IMG/VR virus record: IMGVR_UViG_3300029939_000035
Location: 1 to 27,779 of that record
Reading direction: 5' to 3' (one strand)
DNA length: 27,779 nt
DNA from: a virus
Both the position numbers and the translations under genes were made by a program. The notes beneath the pieces were generated by a model, which was given only the letters and a program-made list of their open reading frames with translations, had not been told where the DNA came from and made no database searches. Below are positions 1-22,735 of this stretch, one piece after another (positions within the stretch are counted from its first letter, which is position 1; the number at the start of each line of letters is the position of its first letter).

Positions 1-119
1 TTCAGCGCGTCAATAATGGCTTCGCGGCCGATGCCCAGGCTTGGCGTCTTTTCCTGCGCCTGGACGGGAATGGCCACCAGCACGAGCAGGCAGGCCCATA
101 TCAATGTATGCATTTTCAT
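1..119 (-). CDS. Exported protein of unknown function (N-terminal part only)
   Basis: Read on the minus strand, ATG at 119 opens a frame that runs off the left edge after 39 codons. A GGAGAA ribosome binding site (plus-strand 127-132) sits 7 bases upstream, which decides this start. The protein begins MKMHTLIWACLLVLVAIPVQ and continues AQEKTPSLG. This is a clear Sec signal peptide: a basic start, a hydrophobic core and an AQA-like cleavage site near residue 21. The mature protein is therefore periplasmic or secreted. Too little is visible to name a family. The gene points away from the phage operon, so it is either host DNA beside the prophage or a cargo (moron) gene carried by it; the window cannot separate the two. 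Confidence 0.75.
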   Translation of the reverse strand, partial: MKMHTLIWACLLVLVAIPVQAQEKTPSLGIGREAIIDAL

Positions 120-200: not shown

Positions 201-229
201 TTGACATTTTTAGGAGATGCGCCTAACGT
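201..229 (+). promoter_or_regulatory. Candidate sigma70-type promoter
   Basis: A perfect -35 hexamer TTGACA (201-206) is followed after exactly 17 bases by TAACGT (224-229), which matches the -10 consensus at three of six positions. The surrounding DNA is AT-rich compared with the rest of the window. Transcription would start near 236 and run toward the antirepressor genes. It is the best promoter match seen in the left non-coding region. Confidence 0.5.
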
Positions 230-235
230 GTTCGG

Positions 236-325
236 TGCCGGGGCGAAAAGGGTCCCGGCGGGGTTTGGCGACCCCTCCGATCTTACGGCGCTCTCAAGCC
301 GCGCCACCGATGTTGCGCGGCTTTT
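236..325 (+). ncRNA. Candidate small RNA or attenuated leader
   Basis: The promoter at 201-229 and the terminator ending at 325 would define a transcript of about 90 bases with no good open reading frame. It would hold a GGGGT/ACCCC hairpin (260-275) and the terminator hairpin. It could be a free small RNA, or a leader whose terminator controls read-through into the antirepressor genes. I do not recognise a known RNA family. The call rests on signal spacing alone. Confidence 0.3.
297..325 (+). terminator. Intrinsic terminator
   Basis: Perfect 8-bp stem AGCCGCGC (297-304) with GCGCGGCT (315-322), a 10-base loop, and a short run of four T at 322-325. The T run is short but the stem is GC-rich. 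It lies about 60 bases downstream of the predicted start of transcription. Confidence 0.6.
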
Positions 326-326
326 A

Positions 327-403
327 TGGTGGAGCGCAGGGGGCATGCGTGAGCGTGCGCCTCTGTCCGTAAGCGGAGGTTCGCCAACCCCTGCGCTCCA
401 CCA
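327..403. repeat. Perfect 16-bp inverted repeat, 45-base centre
   Basis: TGGTGGAGCGCAGGGG (327-342) is the exact reverse complement of CCCCTGCGCTCCACCA (388-403). As RNA this makes a long stable stem with a 45-base apical region. The first ten bases of the motif recur at 426-435 as a direct copy. The structure has no T run, so it is not a simple terminator. The arms are too close together for an insertion sequence, although a very short MITE-like remnant cannot be excluded. Confidence 0.8.
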
Positions 404-457
404 CCAGACTTTTGGCGAGGTCTCCGGTGGAGCGCGGTCAACCGCGAGCTTACGGAG
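367..457 (+). promoter_or_regulatory. Possible pseudoknot leader over the ribosome binding site
   Basis: CCGTAAGC (367-374) lies inside the apical region of the 327-403 hairpin and is exactly complementary to GCTTACGG (448-455). The last two bases of the latter are part of the GGAG ribosome binding site (454-457) of the gene at 466. Pairing would hide the site and form a pseudoknot. A second CTTACGG copy at 282-288, upstream of the terminator, could compete for the same bases. This is inferred from complementarity only. Confidence 0.35.
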
Positions 458-465
458 CCTATGTC

Positions 466-708
466 ATGACGCAATCCCCACAAAACGACTCGAAGTACGT
501 CCGCGCCAAGGCGGTCGTGGACGATTTCGTTGCCCGCAATCGCGGGCGCGCCGCACCCAACCACTGGGCGTTTCTCGGGCACCTGATGTGGTGCCGAGCC
601 AGAGCGGACAAGGCGTTTCTGTTCGCCCTGCTCCGTGTCGCCTGCTTTCATCTCGCCAAGCAGGCCCTGAAACCCGCCGGATTACCGACTCTGTTTGTGA
701 AGGATTGA
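466..708 (+). CDS. Small phage protein of unknown function
   Basis: 80 residues, starting MTQSPQNDSKYVRAK. The start at 466 is chosen over an upstream in-frame TTG at 412 because GGAG (454-457) lies 8 bases before it. The protein is basic, with a central HWAFLGHLMWC segment rich in aromatic residues and no clear membrane helix or known motif. It ends three bases before the antirepressor-like gene, so the two are surely co-transcribed. Position suggests an early or regulatory accessory role, but no function can be assigned. Its translation may be controlled by the structured leader just upstream. Confidence 0.6.
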   Translation: MTQSPQNDSKYVRAKAVVDDFVARNRGRAAPNHWAFLGHLMWCRARADKAFLFALLRVACFHLAKQALKPAGLPTLFVKD

Positions 709-711
709 GTT

Positions 712-1380
712 ATGACGACTCTGATGACCGTGTCCTTTCATGGGCACAGCCTGAATATGATCGAGCACGACGGCCAGCCCTTCGTTGTGATGAAGCCGCT
801 GGTCGAGGGCATCGGCCTGAGTTGGCAGGGCCAGCACAAGAAGCTCATGGCGAACCAACGGCGCTGGGGTATCAACATCTTGTTGATACCTTCCGCCGGC
901 GGCCCGCAGGAGGCGGCATGCCTGCCGCTGCGCAAGCTGCCGGGCTACCTGATGACCATCGAGCCGCGCAAGGTGCCGGAGCGGATCCGGCCGACGGTCG
1001 AGTTATTCCAGGCGGAATGCGACGACGCGCTCTGGGATTATTGGGAAAAGGGCGTGGCGATCAATCTGCGAAAGGCGGCTCCGGCCGAACTGTCGGAGTT
1101 GCGGGAGCAAGTTACCCTGCTTTCGGCGGAACACATGGACCTGCTGCGGCGCTACATCCGGGTGCTGGAGCGGCAGCGAGGGGTTGCGAACCGGAAGCAG
1201 CGGGCCTCGGGCTGGAAGAACCGGCCGGTGACCGGGGAAGAGGTCGCGGAGATGGTTCGGCGCCACCGCGAAGGCCAGTCGCTCAACGCGATCGGGGCTG
1301 CCCTCAATCGACCGGGGATTACGGTGCGCAACAAACTGCGTGCCGCCGGCGTCCTCACCGGGGAGGCATCCCATGGCTGA
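712..1380 (+). CDS. Phage antirepressor-like protein (P22_AR_N domain)
   Basis: 222 residues. Residues 1-115 match the P22 antirepressor N-terminal family: an opening strand (MTVSFHGHSLNMIEHDGQPF), then VVMKPLVEGIGLSWQGQHKK, and the typical LPLRKLPGYLMTIEPRKVPE. Residues near 125-155 form a helical linker. From about 171 to 213 a helix-turn-helix-like segment (VAEMVRRHREGQSLNAIGAA) may bind DNA, in place of the usual antirepressor C-terminal domains. Proteins of this family counteract prophage repressors or act as early regulators; the target here is unknown. The gene follows the 80-residue gene after three bases and overlaps the start of the next gene by eight. It carries a perfect palindrome at 868-890. 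Confidence 0.8.
   Translation: MTTLMTVSFHGHSLNMIEHDGQPFVVMKPLVEGIGLSWQGQHKKLMANQRRWGINILLIPSAGGPQEAACLPLRKLPGYLMTIEPRKVPERIRPTVELFQAECDDALWDYWEKGVAINLRKAAPAELSELREQVTLLSAEHMDLLRRYIRVLERQRGVANRKQRASGWKNRPVTGEEVAEMVRRHREGQSLNAIGAALNRPGITVRNKLRAAGVLTGEASHG
868..890. repeat. Perfect palindrome (10-bp arms, 3-base centre) inside the antirepressor gene
   Basis: GGTATCAACA (868-877) and TGTTGATACC (881-890) are exact reverse complements around TCT. The symmetry uses an ATA isoleucine codon, which looks uncommon in this GC-rich DNA. The element could be an operator within the gene or an RNA hairpin. It is not followed by a T run. Confidence 0.7.
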
Positions 1381-15724: not shown

Positions 15725-18700
15725 ATGGCCGGCGCCAACGAGTTGACGGTTGCCCTCAGGATTACCGGCGACGCCAGCGGCCTGAAGGGCGCGACGGACG
15801 AGGCGACGGCCGACCTCGCCAAGGTGCGGGACGAGGCGGCGCGGACCGAAACCGCGTTCGCGCCGGCCAACGGTCCGGGCATCCTGAACCGCCAGCCGCT
15901 TGACCGGCCGTCGCTGCCCGACGGCACCGACGAACTGGCCAAACTGGATCGGGCTCTTGACGGGGTGCTGTCCCGGCTCGACCCGGTCTACGCCGCCACC
16001 AAACGCTACACGACGGCAGTCGACGCACTCAACGAGGGCCTCGAACGCGGTCTGATCGGCGAGCCCCAGTGGGTGAGCGCCATGCAGGGGGCGCAGGCCG
16101 AACTGGAGCGGGCGGCGCCTTCCGGTATCGCGCAAGGGGGCGCGGCAGCCGACGACGCGCGTTTCGCGGCGCTGGCACGCCGCGCCGCCGAACGGGGCGC
16201 CCGGAACAACGCCGGGCGTCCGGCCGAAGCAGCGCATCCCGCGACCGGTATCGGCGAGGAGATCGCGGAGACGGCGCTGCCCTCCGGGGTGCTGGCCACC
16301 GGGGTCACCCACGCCGAACTGATGCCGGACGCGGCCAAGGGGGCGGCGGCCGCCCGTGGCTACGGCACCGAGTTGCTCCAGCTCGATCGCCAGATCGGCT
16401 ACGTCAGCGCCGCGACCTCGACCTGGCAGTTGGGACAGGCCAAACTGAACGACCTGTTGGCCGCGGGCGCGATCACCGCTGCCGAACATGCCGAGCGGGT
16501 TGCCTTCCTCCGGGCGGCCTATGAGACCGGCGCCAGCGCTGCCGAACATTTGGGGCATGGGACCGCCGGCGTCACGCGGGAATTACTGGTGCTGGGCCAC
16601 GAGGGGGTGGCCGGCAACTTCGCCCGCATCCCGGGCAGCCTGATGGTATTGGGCGAGCGTTTCGACGCGGTCGGGGCTGCCATACGGGCGGTCGGGGTCG
16701 GCGGCGTGGCGGCCGGGGTGTTGCTGGTGGGGGCGCTGGCCACGGTGACGGCGGCGGCGCTGGGGGGCGCCGAGCAGATCCGGCGTCTCGACGCCGCGAT
16801 CAAGGCCAGCGGGGGCGCCGTCGGCCTGCGCGGCAGCCAGGTCGATCAGATCGCGACCCAGGCCGCGGCGGCAGGGCACCAGTCGTCGGGGACCTACCAC
16901 GACGTCGCGCTGGCGGCGATCGGCAGCGGCCAGATCGACAGTGCGGTATTGCCCCAACTGCTGGGCGTCACCGCCGACTACGCCGCCGGGACCGGCCAGG
17001 ACGCCGATAAGGCCGGGCACGAGCTGGTCGCGGATCTGGCAAACCCGACCGCCGCCGCGGCGCGCCTCACCGAGCAGTACCACCTGCTGAGCGCCGCCGA
17101 ACTGGAGCATATCGAACGGCTGCAACGGCAGGGCGACCTGGAAGGCGCGCAAATGGCGCTCCTCGACGGGATCAATCGCCGGTTCAAGGGGGCGGCCGAC
17201 GAGGGGCTGAGCGATTTCGACCGGGTACTTCGGAAAATCGGCGACAAAATGCGTCCCATTGGGGACGGAATGGCGGCTCTCGGCAAGCCGACGGCTGTCG
17301 AGCAGATGATCGCGGCGCAACGGGCCAAGTTGGCTCAAACGGGCACAGACAACATCGCGGTGGGAGATGATGCGGCGTTGGGGGACGGCGGTGGTCCAAC
17401 CCTGCACGATTACCAGCACCTGGACCAGCTGGTCACCTGGCAGGCCGAGCGTGACGTCGAGGCGCGCCTCAAAGAAGAAAGTGCGGGACGTCAAACCAGC
17501 ATCAATGCCGGTTTGGACCTGTCCAATACGTTGGATCCCGACGCGGCTAACCAGAAACGGCTTGTCGATCAGAGTATTGCGGCCCAGCACGCGCTTCAGG
17601 CGTTCAAGGACGAATATCCCGACCTTGGCCCCCACAACCTCGGGACGGACGGGATCGCCTATGGGCTGGCCGATCAATTCGCGCGGTTGGCCCGGAGCGC
17701 CGAGGCCGCGTTGCTTCAGGTGCGCAATTACCGCACCCAATTGCAGCAACTCCAACAGCAGCACACCGATATCGAGGCGCTGGCCGGGGTGCCGGCGGGA
17801 CAGCAGCGCCAGTTGGCCGAGACCCACCAGTCGGCCCTGAGGCAGTATCAGGCCGACCCCGATGGCGTCGCCGACGCCGACCAGGCCCGGGACAACGCCG
17901 CGGCCGGGATGGCCACCGCGGCCCGCGACGGCGCGGCCGAGACCGAACGCGGGACCCAGGCGATGCTGCGGCTCGCCGAGGCCACCCGGGGCGGGGCCGC
18001 GGCGGCGCGCGAGGCGGCGCTCGCCAACCAGATCGAGGCCGAGACCGCGAAGGCGTTGCCGGGATTGCAGCGCCAGATCGCCGGCGCCCTGATCGCCCGC
18101 GACGCCGCCGAGCGCAAACTGGGGGAGGCCCAGGCGATCGCCGGGGCCGAGGAGCAGCAGCTGGCCGGCGCGATGGCGCTCTACGGGGTGACCGGTCAGG
18201 CCGCAGACCTGGAACGGCTGGTCGGCCTGGAGCAACGGCGCGCCGAGGCGCTGGCGCACTCCAACCAGCAACTGGACGCCACGGTGGCGCGGCTCGGCGC
18301 CGTCCAGAGCGCCGCGGGGGATGCCACGGGCGGTGTGGACCGGCTGGTCGCGGCGGTGATCAAGGTCGAGAGCCGCGGCAACAACAGCGAGGTCAGCCAC
18401 GCCCACGACGGTCCCTATTACGGGTTGATGCAGGTCGGCCACGCCGCCGCCGCGGACGTTGGTTTTGGGGACGCCGACCTCACCGACCCCAAAACCAATG
18501 TCGCGGCCGGCACTGCGTATCTGCAGAAGATGGTTCGCGATCAGGGCTCGACCCCGTGGGGACTGGCCGCCTACAACGCCGGACCGGGACCGGTGGGCCA
18601 GTGGCGCCAGCAGGGTTTGACCGTCGACCAGATCCCCTGGGCCGAAACCAGGGATTACGTCCGGCAGGTCACCGCGGCGATGGGCGAGCAGGTCGGGACC

Positions 18701-21700
18701 GCCGACAATCTGGCCGGTGCCCAGACCCGGGTCGCGACCGCGCTCACGGCGCACGGCGCCGCGCTCTCGGCCGACGCCCCGCTGACCGAGGCCGACCGCG
18801 CCGCCAACGCGGCCCTGGCGGACGTCTACCGGACGGCGGCCGGTGCGGCCGGCGCCACCAACCAGACGCTCCGCGACGCCGAACTGGTGATGGCGGCGCA
18901 CAAGGCGGCCACCGACGGCTCGCGGGCGTCCTTCGAGGGGTTGCTGCAGGCGATGCGGGACGGCGCGACGCTCAAGGCGACCGCCGATCTCAATAGCCAG
19001 ATCGACGCCCTCAATCGCGAGACCAGCATCTTGCAACAGCAGGTGGCGATCCGTCAGCAACTCGGCTACGGCCCGGAGGGCGATGCCGCGGTCAAGGCGC
19101 GCGGGAACGCCGCGGCGGCACAGGCGGCGGCGGCCGGCTCAAACGACCCGCAGGGGCTGGCGGCCAAATGGCTGGCGGCGACGAATGCTGCCGATGATTA
19201 CAACAAACAACTCCAGGACGGCGAGCAAGAATACAAGAAACACCAGGACGCGCTGAACGACATCGCCCGGCTTGGCGAAAGCTCTTTTGACCGGATCGGA
19301 GGCGCCATTACCCAGGCGTTCGTCCAGGGTCAGGGCGGCGCGCTCGGTTTCAAAACAGTTTTGAAGGGCGTCTTCTCCGAGATCGAACAGGACGTGATCA
19401 AGCTCGGGGTGATCAATCCCATCGAGAATTGGATGCTGGGCTCCGACGCCAAGAAGGCGCGCCCGACCCTCAATGACCTGGTGGGTGCGGACGGCGCCGC
19501 TTCGTCGGCCGGCGGTTCCGACGGCTCCGTCAGCAGCACCAGCCTGTTCGCGGCGCTGTTCGGCGACTCGTCGTCGTCGAGCCCGGGGCTGCTCCTCGCC
19601 CCCCAGAGCGACGGCACGCTGTTGGTGAGTTCCGGCGCCGACGCCGGGGCCGCGGCGAACGCCAATACCCCGGGGTCGGGGGGCACCGTTGACCTGTCGT
19701 CCCTGACCAAACTGCTTTCCGGCTCGGACGGTTCCCGGTTGTCGGACACCCTTGACGACGCCTGGTCGGGCAGTTGGCTGCAATCGCTGTTTGGCGGCGG
19801 CGACGCGGCGTCGGTGCCGCTCTCGAGCTGGGGCGTCGACGCCACGCCCGACTGGTCGACGATTTCGGTGGGATCGGATCAGGCGCTGGCGACGCAAGGC
19901 GCGCTTGACGACGTGCCGGCGACCGACGGATTCGGGGTCGGTTCGGGGTCGGCGTTCGCCCCGGGCGGCCTTGCGGCCGGCAGCGCGTTTGCGCCCGCCA
20001 CCGACAGCGGCGCGCTGGCGACCGCGGCCGGCAGCGGCGGCTTCATGGCCGGCGCCGGCCCCTACGCGCTCGGCGGCATGGCGGCGAGCCTGCTCGGCAA
20101 CGCCATCGGCGGCACCGGGGGAGCGGTCCTTTCGGGCGCCGGCCAGGGCGCCGGCATGGGGGCGGCGCTGGGGTCGGTCATTCCCGGGGTCGGCACGGCG
20201 ATCGGCGCGTTGGGGGGTGCGCTGGTGGGCGGCATCACCGGGCTGTTCGGCAACAGCACGCCGTCGGTCGGCCCCAACGGGGGGACGCGGGTGGCGTTCG
20301 ACGGCGGCACCGGCCAGTTCGTAAGTGGGTTGTCGGGCGGCGACAACGGCTTTAACCCCTCCCAGACCACCGCCGAAGCCAAACAACTCGCCTCCGCCCT
20401 CAATCAACTGGTGGTCGGGGACAATCTGTCGGTCGACACCACGGCGCTGACCGGGATGGGACAACAGGCCGATATCCAGCAGGGCGGAACGCAAGGGGTT
20501 TCGGGAGCGCCGGCGGGTCAGACGGCGGATCAGGTGATCAACAATATGTTGGGGGCCGGGGTGTTTTCCGGCAGCGGGGCGGTCGGAACCTCGCTCGATT
20601 ACCTGACCGGGCAGGCCGCCAACGATAACCCAATCGGTCTACAAAGCCTTCAGACGGCACTCAATTTTGCCCAAGCGCTGCAGACCGCGACCGACGCCGC
20701 CGACACGTTCGGAAGCGGCCTGAGCGGGGCCACCGATGCGGCCAAGAACAGCGCGGACGCCAACACTCAGACGATCAAGGGGCAACTGAGCACCGCCGAA
20801 ACCAGCGGCGTCGAGAGCCAGTGGCAGTCCACCGAGCAACTGTCGCTCAAGAATCAGGTCACGTCGCTGACCGACGCGACCCCGACCACCTCGCTGGGCA
20901 AATCGCTGGCGACGCTCCAGGGGCAAATCGCGGGGGTGGCCGACAACGCGGCGGCGGCCGGGGTCACGCTCGATCAGGGCCAGATCAACGCGCAGCTGAC
21001 CTCCTGGCTGCAATCGCAGATCACCCAGGCGCTGGGGGGAACCGGCGCCGCGGCGTCGACCGGCACCGCCTACGTCGCCGAAAACGCCGCCAACGACTCG
21101 GTGCTGACGGCGGCCGGGGCGTCGACGGGCGCGTCGGATCAATTGCTTCAAAATGAACTGACCAAGCTGCTGGCCGGGATGGATCCGGCGGTGGCGGCGC
21201 AGTTTGCCCAGCAACAGGGGGGCGCCGTGGCCACCGCCTGGGGCAATATGGCGCAGGCGCCGTCGGGCTATACCGTCCGCCGGACCCAGGCCACCCAGTC
21301 CCTCACCGCGGTCGATCAGGGCAGCGGCAGCGTGGCTGCGGTCGATCAGGCGCAGACGGTCGCCAATCTGCAACGGCAGGTAAGCCAAACCCAAGAACTG
21401 AACGCCGCCACCGACGATTACACGCGTAGCCTGATCGAGCAGACCCAGGCCGAAGAAAACGCCGCGGCAACAGCGCAGCAGGCGCAGCAACTTCAGCAAA
21501 TACAGAACCAGCAACAGGTCAACACCGATAATCTCTCGGCGCGGGCGGCCTCGGCAAGCGGAGACTCCGCCGACGCCCAAACGATCAAGCTCGATGTGCA
21601 GCACGAGCAGGAGCTTGATCAGGCGCGGACCGACGGCATGACGGATATCGATCAGTTGATCGCCGTTCAGGACAGCGAGAATGCCCAGTTGCAGGCGCAG

Positions 21701-22735
21701 ATCGCCAACCAGCGACAGGTCAACACCGACAACCTCTCGGCCCGGCTGGCGGCGGCTACCGGAGACTCCGCCGACGCCCAAACGATCAAGCTCGATGTGC
21801 AGCACGAGCAGGAGCTTGATCAGGCGCGGACCGACGGCATGACGGATATCGATCAGTTGATCGCCGTTCAGGACAGCGAGAATGCCCAGTTGCAGGCGCA
21901 GATCGCCAACCAGGAGGCGGTCAACGCGATCAATCTGACCGCGCGCCAGGACGCGACCGAGGGAGCAGCCTATCAGCAGAAACTGGCGCAGACCGAGGCG
22001 CAGTTTCAGCAGGAACGGTACGAGGCGGCACAGGACGGCATGACCGATATGGTTGCTCTGGAACAAACTGAACAGGATGAATTGAACAAAATCGCCCAGG
22101 ACGCCTATCTCTCGCTCTATGACTGGATGCAGGATCAGCTGGCCGGAACCGAAACCCCGGCCAATCAATTGAGCCTGTATCAGGCCCAACTGGCAAACGT
22201 CTATGCGGGCCAGTTCACGGGTGCCGACCAATTGTCCGCGATCGAGCAGGCGACCAGTAACGTGCTGAGCGCGGCCAAAACTTACTTCGGGACCGCGACC
22301 ACCGATTATCAAAATTTTGCGACACAGGTCCTGGAGCAGGTCTCGGCCTGGGCGGCACAGAACGGCATCCCGGGTTTCGATGCCGCGGTGCCAGCGCCAG
22401 AAGGGACGCTCGCGGTGCCCGGCTTCGCCAGCGGCGGCACGTTCACGGTCGGGGGGTGGGGTGGCGTCGACAGCACGCTCGTGAAATTTGCGGCGACGCC
22501 AGGCGAACAGGTCACCGTCACCGGTTCCGGGTTGGCCGGTTCCGGCGCCGCCTGGTCAGCGGGCACCGCGGCGCCGTCCTCGAACGACGCGCTGATCCAG
22601 GAAGTGCGCCAGTTGTGTGCGCTGGTGCAGCAGTTGCTCGCGACGACGGCCCTGGGGCTGCAGGCGCAGTTGGACAGCCTGGCGAACGTCAACCAGACGC
22701 TGCGCACCCGCTCGGATCTGCGGAGGGCCGCGTGA
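15725..22735 (+). CDS. Tail tape measure protein with lytic transglycosylase domain
   Basis: 2336 residues. AGGAG (15714-15718) precedes the ATG. Helical N-terminal regions lead to a hydrophobic stretch (about 315-350) and a lambda-type tape measure core (about 350-500). Around 870-990 is an SLT-type domain with catalytic E882 in IKVESRGN, then YGLMQV and LAAYNAGPGP; it would open peptidoglycan during DNA entry. Near 1186-1240 is the lambda C-terminal-like block SFDRIGGAITQAFVQGQGG. Glycine-rich hydrophobic residues 1440-1510 may insert in the inner membrane. Residues 1931-2064 are a tandem 67-residue duplication. The protein sets tail length, so the tail should be very long, several hundred nanometres by the usual length rule. 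Confidence 0.93.
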   Translation: MAGANELTVALRITGDASGLKGATDEATADLAKVRDEAARTETAFAPANGPGILNRQPLDRPSLPDGTDELAKLDRALDGVLSRLDPVYAATKRYTTAVDALNEGLERGLIGEPQWVSAMQGAQAELERAAPSGIAQGGAAADDARFAALARRAAERGARNNAGRPAEAAHPATGIGEEIAETALPSGVLATGVTHAELMPDAAKGAAAARGYGTELLQLDRQIGYVSAATSTWQLGQAKLNDLLAAGAITAAEHAERVAFLRAAYETGASAAEHLGHGTAGVTRELLVLGHEGVAGNFARIPGSLMVLGERFDAVGAAIRAVGVGGVAAGVLLVGALATVTAAALGGAEQIRRLDAAIKASGGAVGLRGSQVDQIATQAAAAGHQSSGTYHDVALAAIGSGQIDSAVLPQLLGVTADYAAGTGQDADKAGHELVADLANPTAAAARLTEQYHLLSAAELEHIERLQRQGDLEGAQMALLDGINRRFKGAADEGLSDFDRVLRKIGDKMRPIGDGMAALGKPTAVEQMIAAQRAKLAQTGTDNIAVGDDAALGDGGGPTLHDYQHLDQLVTWQAERDVEARLKEESAGRQTSINAGLDLSNTLDPDAANQKRLVDQSIAAQHALQAFKDEYPDLGPHNLGTDGIAYGLADQFARLARSAEAALLQVRNYRTQLQQLQQQHTDIEALAGVPAGQQRQLAETHQSALRQYQADPDGVADADQARDNAAAGMATAARDGAAETERGTQAMLRLAEATRGGAAAAREAALANQIEAETAKALPGLQRQIAGALIARDAAERKLGEAQAIAGAEEQQLAGAMALYGVTGQAADLERLVGLEQRRAEALAHSNQQLDATVARLGAVQSAAGDATGGVDRLVAAVIKVESRGNNSEVSHAHDGPYYGLMQVGHAAAADVGFGDADLTDPKTNVAAGTAYLQKMVRDQGSTPWGLAAYNAGPGPVGQWRQQGLTVDQIPWAETRDYVRQVTAAMGEQVGTADNLAGAQTRVATALTAHGAALSADAPLTEADRAANAALADVYRTAAGAAGATNQTLRDAELVMAAHKAATDGSRASFEGLLQAMRDGATLKATADLNSQIDALNRETSILQQQVAIRQQLGYGPEGDAAVKARGNAAAAQAAAAGSNDPQGLAAKWLAATNAADDYNKQLQDGEQEYKKHQDALNDIARLGESSFDRIGGAITQAFVQGQGGALGFKTVLKGVFSEIEQDVIKLGVINPIENWMLGSDAKKARPTLNDLVGADGAASSAGGSDGSVSSTSLFAALFGDSSSSSPGLLLAPQSDGTLLVSSGADAGAAANANTPGSGGTVDLSSLTKLLSGSDGSRLSDTLDDAWSGSWLQSLFGGGDAASVPLSSWGVDATPDWSTISVGSDQALATQGALDDVPATDGFGVGSGSAFAPGGLAAGSAFAPATDSGALATAAGSGGFMAGAGPYALGGMAASLLGNAIGGTGGAVLSGAGQGAGMGAALGSVIPGVGTAIGALGGALVGGITGLFGNSTPSVGPNGGTRVAFDGGTGQFVSGLSGGDNGFNPSQTTAEAKQLASALNQLVVGDNLSVDTTALTGMGQQADIQQGGTQGVSGAPAGQTADQVINNMLGAGVFSGSGAVGTSLDYLTGQAANDNPIGLQSLQTALNFAQALQTATDAADTFGSGLSGATDAAKNSADANTQTIKGQLSTAETSGVESQWQSTEQLSLKNQVTSLTDATPTTSLGKSLATLQGQIAGVADNAAAAGVTLDQGQINAQLTSWLQSQITQALGGTGAAASTGTAYVAENAANDSVLTAAGASTGASDQLLQNELTKLLAGMDPAVAAQFAQQQGGAVATAWGNMAQAPSGYTVRRTQATQSLTAVDQGSGSVAAVDQAQTVANLQRQVSQTQELNAATDDYTRSLIEQTQAEENAAATAQQAQQLQQIQNQQQVNTDNLSARAASASGDSADAQTIKLDVQHEQELDQARTDGMTDIDQLIAVQDSENAQLQAQIANQRQVNTDNLSARLAAATGDSADAQTIKLDVQHEQELDQARTDGMTDIDQLIAVQDSENAQLQAQIANQEAVNAINLTARQDATEGAAYQQKLAQTEAQFQQERYEAAQDGMTDMVALEQTEQDELNKIAQDAYLSLYDWMQDQLAGTETPANQLSLYQAQLANVYAGQFTGADQLSAIEQATSNVLSAAKTYFGTATTDYQNFATQVLEQVSAWAAQNGIPGFDAAVPAPEGTLAVPGFASGGTFTVGGWGGVDSTLVKFAATPGEQVTVTGSGLAGSGAAWSAGTAAPSSNDALIQEVRQLCALVQQLLATTALGLQAQLDSLANVNQTLRTRSDLRRAA
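21515..21916 (+). repeat. Two tandem 201-bp copies in the tape measure gene
   Basis: Copy one is 21515-21715 and copy two 21716-21916, codon-aligned, 67 residues each. About 153 bases (21560-21712 against 21761-21913) are identical, including silent positions, so the duplication is recent or kept uniform by gene conversion. A third, diverged copy appears to follow from 21917 (AVNAINLTAR against QVNTDNLSAR, then DGMTDM against DGMTDI). Confidence 0.92.

Follow-up and report, generated by a model that had tools for sequence, protein, structure and literature searches.

A member of the C4 antisense RNA family ahead of the antirepressor operon of a Mu-like phage, and a third conserved pairing in C4 leaders

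C4 antisense RNA was originally discovered in P1 and P7, two phages in which it blocks translation of the antirepressor operon and the prophage stays dormant. The C4 RNA of these two phages was reportedly described by Citron and Schuster in 1990. We compare it below with three further kinds of system: a Salmonella locus with a short RNA upstream of an antirepressor gene, a sequence motif, and two other phage immunity RNAs. In P1 and P7, the C4 hairpin is excised by RNase P and acts as an antisense RNA in its own right, carrying a' and b' loops (PMC5320573); its processing and action in trans are also covered in PMC8198154 and PMC12197685. The P1 record is annotated in the order a1, b1, C4, a2, b2, icd, and ant1. 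PMC2864571 gave the c4-a1b1 motif (Rfam RF03163) its name; in position and role, the motif corresponds to the upstream a1/b1 segment of such loci. For the isrK-orf45-anrP locus of Salmonella Gifsy-1, the published account uses an orf45-based model and a comparison with P4 CI, and mentions neither C4 RNA nor phage P1 (PMC4825925). The P4 CI RNA with seqA/seqC and the P22 sar RNA are phage immunity RNAs that pair with upstream and downstream sites, or repress ant (PMC4825925, PMC12197685); they are different RNA families, set apart here by their description.

We analyzed a 27,779-nucleotide stretch of viral DNA (IMG/VR record IMGVR_UViG_3300029939_000035, hereafter the window). The Rfam C4 antisense RNA model (RF01695) matched the plus strand at positions 322-408 with 56.7 bits against a curated cut-off of 45, covering model positions 1-87 of 87; model R1 gave 63.7 bits, and the core stem spans 328-402. 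As judged by this match, the leader element is a member of the known C4 antisense RNA family. A previous sequence-only reading of this DNA had recognised no known family here, a view that does not stand, since the curated cut-off is passed and the annotated P1 layout is present. Its 16-bp perfect stem is real, positions 327-342 (TGGTGGAGCGCAGGGG) being the exact reverse complement of 388-403. It had drawn a hairpin with CCGTAAGC (367-374) in its loop region; the segment does lie in a loop, that of an inner hairpin, but the element is the branched C4 fold with a closing stem and two inner hairpins rather than one simple hairpin. The 87-nt RNA 322-408 has a predicted folding energy of -57.1 kcal/mol (z -7.8), and the longer 236-475 RNA a z-score of -5.8. 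A fold of this strength and complexity might also suggest a metabolite-binding riboswitch or some other new leader class, but given the full-length C4 match, the P1-like sites, and an Rfam search of the region that, apart from C4 and isrK, returned a single chance miRNA match (E 0.88) and no riboswitch family, we consider this to have practically no chance of being correct. The class of the element is ordinary, and a third conserved pairing is its one new detail.

The window carries all the pairing sites expected from P1, in the same order (a1-b1-C4-a2-b2-gene-ant) and with the same spacing. The b' loop CCGTAAGC is the exact complement of GCTTACGG at 448-455 (b2), which overlaps the Shine-Dalgarno sequence GGAG at 454-457, just as the sequence-only reading had placed it; b' is also complementary to CTTACGG at 282-288 (b1), the upstream copy which that reading had regarded as a competitor for the loop. 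In the 27.8 kb, CTTACGG occurs three times, at 282-288 (+), 449-455 (+), and 367-373 (-), a count reached in 29 of 100 shuffles and unremarkable on its own; the evidence therefore lies in position and in conservation among relatives. A second matched set consists of TTGGCGA at 265-271 (a1, in a hairpin loop) and 412-418 (a2), both on the plus strand, and their complement TCGCCAA at 381-387 (a'), between the inner hairpin and the closing stem. The fold and the a' and b' positions are shared with P1, where a' (CTGTCAA) lies in the linker and b' (CACTAAC) in the loop of the second hairpin. In P1, b2 covers the ribosome-binding site and ends at 48459, with icd starting at 48470; the same 10-nt gap separates b2 from the ATG at 466 in the window. 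That ATG is the start of the small gene, as the one at 461 runs straight into an in-frame stop. The earlier reading had thus found b', b1, and b2 and missed a', a1, and a2, as well as the base-pairing role of the repeat GGTGGAGCGC discussed below.

Upstream of C4, a1 and b1 form a second target pair, probably on the same transcript as C4. They lie within a putative IsrK-like leader RNA at 237-327 (+), to which isrK (RF01394) gave 32.7 bits (E 2.9e-5 for 651 bases searched), short of its gathering score of 50. It ends in a terminator-like hairpin at 296-325 (AAGCCGCGC / GCGCGGCTT) with TTTT at 322-325, directly before C4. With E values up to 1 allowed, the c4-a1b1 model was not found in the window; it did match in three further sequences (L007, L020, and L028) and in Gifsy-1. 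A promoter is predicted at 201-229 (+) from TTGACA (201-206), a 17-nt spacer, and TAACGT (224-229), which would place the transcription start near 236; a promoter scan made no call at this site, and the second hexamer matches at only 3 of 6 positions. A blastn search of 200-720 against phage records returned no match.

Further evidence for the pairings was sought in 81 C4 loci from phages and genomes, 80 of which have distinct a' and b' segments. The pairing of each C4 with its own flanks far exceeded that with the flanks of other loci, with z-scores of 20 (a'-a1), 22 (a'-a2), 10 (b'-b1), and 26 (b'-b2), and the observed values were reached in 0 of 2000 permutations, which leave shared ancestry in. 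Runs of at least 7 exact pairs were found between a' and a2 in 94% of own and 10% of swapped combinations, and between b' and b2 in 75% and 10%, respectively. The b'-b2 pairing is conserved while its sequence constantly changes. The sequence-only reading had named the lack of covariation in relatives as evidence against its loop pairing; instead, covariation proved to be strong. Relatives also retain the full C4 fold and begin with GG where RNase P would cut, a site predicted in the window at GGT 328 (+), in line with the GGW start from which a C4 RNA of ~77 nt would be processed.

Several C4 RNAs may occur together. The genome of Pseudomonas entomophila WZ006 (L028, G083) has 27 C4 matches, and among its 23 distinct loci, own a2 and b2 were matched (at least 7 nt each) in 17, compared with 2 of 506 cross-combinations; the C4 specificities in this genome are nearly separate. 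Many C4-like RNAs in one genome have already been reported for Acinetobacter (PMC5320573). In L014, tandem C4 RNAs are present at 1200-1286 and 1480-1566, the upstream copy being without matching adjacent a2/b2 sites.

Downstream of b2, the window encodes a small ORF of 80 aa at 466-708 (+), placed as icd is in P1; neither a Pfam or PHROG match nor a confirmed viral-contig relative was found for it, and no similarity to P1 Icd was seen. It is followed at 712-1380 (+) by an antirepressor of 222 aa with a P22_AR_N domain (Pfam PF10547, E 6.2e-38; PHROG 524, anti-repressor Ant, E 4e-50). The sequence-only reading had placed a switchable RNA in front of an antirepressor-like gene, and the PF10547 domain, the C4 family match, and the loop complementary to the ribosome-binding site bear this out. 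The locus differs from P1/P7 in the P22_AR_N type of its antirepressor, in a small gene without family match to Icd, and in its setting among Mu-like phage genes: GemA- and Mor-like genes, an endolysin, and a terminase lie 3' of the antirepressor (Pfam, PHROG). The same locus was found in a Rhodospirillales bog metagenome contig with one mismatch in 3,377 bases, and the host is likely alphaproteobacterial. No other C4 copies were detected in 81 further genomes from the order of the host-like genome; within its class, C4 is rare, with 5 of 385 genomes carrying one, whereas it is common across the phylum sample, at 62 of 398. Within positions 1-119 (-) of the window, a minus-strand gene appears to start, and its product begins much like a signal peptide (ATGAAAATGCATACATTG...), from which the antirepressor operon seems to lie near the phage edge or beside an unrelated gene. 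There is also an open reading frame of 2336 aa at 15725-22735 (+), which is unusually long given that the phage fragment measures 27.8 kb. In three relatives without a C4 match (L003 1864-1949, L008 1880-1962, and L031 1817-1898), Rfam sRNA-Xcc1 (RF02221) is found directly before the antirepressor gene and may be another antirepressor-leader RNA.

It is very probable, in our judgment, that a C4-type antisense RNA controls this antirepressor operon and that an a1b1 RNA counters it. This rests on the full-length RF01695 match above the cut-off, the P1 order and spacing, own-site pairing across the 80 loci, the antirepressor downstream, the precedent of P1/P7 (PMC5320573), and the Gifsy-1 isrK mutants (PMC4825925). 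From the family match, layout, and conserved pairings seen in the window, and by analogy with the named systems, we infer the following steps for this phage. One promoter would give a transcript that opens with the IsrK-like RNA (about 237-325), including a1, b1, and its own terminator. Readthrough would produce the C4 hairpin, presumably excised at the predicted RNase P site, and a' and b' could then pair in trans with a2 and b2 and thereby mask the small gene's ribosome-binding site. With the small gene untranslated, the antirepressor, probably coupled to it, would not be made and lysogeny would be kept. The a1b1 RNA, carrying the same two sites, could bind and disable C4, leading to induction. 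Counted against this mechanism are the small ORF without a family, the isrK and c4-a1b1 scores below their cut-offs, and a Salmonella result considered below.

The exact b'-b2 complement on one transcript is equally what a cis-acting device would need: in an uncleaved leader, the hairpin loop would pair with the ribosome-binding site to form a pseudoknot, and the upstream copy would compete for the loop. Since an unprocessed precursor has to be present, briefly at least, some such pairing could form. The C4 of P1/P7 is nevertheless processed and acts in trans (PMC5320573), and the relatives keep both the full C4 fold and a GG at the point of RNase P cleavage; we regard cis control as quite improbable. 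Of the pseudoknot proposed by the sequence-only reading, the b'-b2 pairing survives as a conserved contact, but its closure in cis is not needed for trans-acting C4 repression.

The Gifsy-1 locus offers a further comparison for this trans-acting C4 mechanism. In the isrK-orf45-anrP region (L118 34131-34316, minus strand), we found a full C4 RNA (69 bits) together with isrK and c4-a1b1, before the antirepressor gene; C4 occupies IsrK positions 103-186 and the antirepressor ATG is at 241. Gifsy-1 has a short upstream terminated RNA with a1/b1 and a readthrough RNA with C4, both of which are predicted for the window, and it shares with the window an antirepressor downstream and a c2 site (see below); it differs in that C4 and the antirepressor are not separated by another gene, and in the window the isrK match is below the cut-off. 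When mapped onto this arrangement, the published isrK mutations G28A/G31A fall in a1 (26-32), C159U/C162U in a' (158-164), and G114 and C175 in the C4 stem. With the a' changes, AnrP translation rose from 4 units to 484 and 926 (PMC4825925), as expected from loss of C4 repression. Supplying IsrK in trans increased AnrP translation approximately 100-fold, and a1-mutant IsrK was without effect (PMC4825925). These mutant results are consistent with C4 acting as a repressor and a counter-RNA lifting the block, and IsrK-AnrP of Salmonella and C4 of P1/P7 look like one and the same device. However, IsrK toxicity was not counteracted when the C4-like STnc1160 was co-expressed, and extra STnc1160 increased it (PMC4825925), which misfits a simple sponge model, as that model predicts opposition to IsrK toxicity.

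Besides the a and b sites, the window contains a third pairing. The motif GGTGGAGCGC, previously noted as a twofold repeat, does occur twice on the plus strand, at 328-337 and 426-435, and in addition on the minus strand at 393-402; three copies were reached in 0 of 100 shuffles. The repeat is one side of a complementarity between the 3' arm of the C4 stem (c', 393-402) and a site between a2 and b2 (c2, 426-435). The c2 complement is GGTAGCAGG in P1, and in Gifsy-1, GGTGGTGA at 203-210 can pair with TCACCACC at 176-183. The published Gifsy-1 structures were modelled over 1-180 (PMC4825925) and so exclude c2. In the 80 loci, c'-c2 pairing tracks with z 12.3, against 0.7, -0.9, and 0.7 for control segments; a downstream match of the C4 5' arm gave no signal in these loci (z 0.7). 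In a comparison of 40 independent pairs of relatives, base pairs whose two sides had both changed were restored in 59% of cells for c'-c2; the C4 stem reached 80%, and decoys 23-31%. The compensatory counts are small (22 vs 15 cells) and include each pair of relatives once per direction. No description of c'-c2 was found in the literature searched, which lay outside the original P1 C4 papers (e.g., 10.1093/nar/20.12.3085).

These data raise the possibility of a two-state leader, in which the C4 fold exchanges with a state where a1b1 pairs with b'a', c' pairs with c2, and C4 is unfolded, the balance being tipped by a1b1 in cis or by the short IsrK-like RNA. This would complement the C4 mechanism, and we hold it to be plausible at somewhat less than even chances. 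The C4 fold and the fold with c'-c2 forced differ by a median of only 0.4 kcal/mol in real loci, compared with 5.9 with c2 shuffled, 7.0 with the upstream part removed, and 5.3 with the upstream part of another locus, the alternative helix being chosen as the best per sequence; the controls imply that own a1b1 and own c2 jointly bring the alternative to balance. Two Gifsy-1 conformers seen on a native gel (PMC4825925) also favor two states, as does the predicted c'-a2-c2 hairpin of the window (-31 kcal/mol, z -4.9). In the partial transcript 237-440, the alternative fold is the predicted minimum. On the other hand, the window itself prefers the C4 fold (stem probability 0.96; MFE -137.6 vs -134.7 with c'-c2 forced), and the tracking score comes from permutations that retain shared ancestry. 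Mere exposure of the ribosome-binding site by the alternative fold is unsupported across relatives, where exposure was inconsistent (higher in 30 and lower in 16 of 65).

The same conservation data, and the fixed position of c2 between a2 and b2, would also suit a third contact of mature C4 with its target, the 3' arm opening to bind there. For this, the 16-pair stem must open, and the order b'-a'-c' against a2-c2-b2 precludes one continuous duplex, which makes a third contact unlikely. Extending the two-state leader to the whole family, we propose only tentatively that C4 leaders are generally bistable, with a conserved c2, that a1b1 (in cis, or as an IsrK-like RNA in trans) together with c'-c2 pairing unfolds C4, and that Salmonella IsrK is a C4 counter-RNA.

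The window thus places a known phage immunity RNA in a Mu-like phage, and the parts that merit follow-up are the third conserved pairing and the identity of the IsrK and C4 systems. As the P1/P7 C4 and Salmonella IsrK-AnrP systems are apparently the same device, mutants already published for one also serve as tests of the other. More than 20 C4 systems can coexist in one bacterial genome with almost no cross-matching, which constitutes a natural set of separate RNA regulators. Finally, the shared third pairing may make C4 leaders two-state switches.
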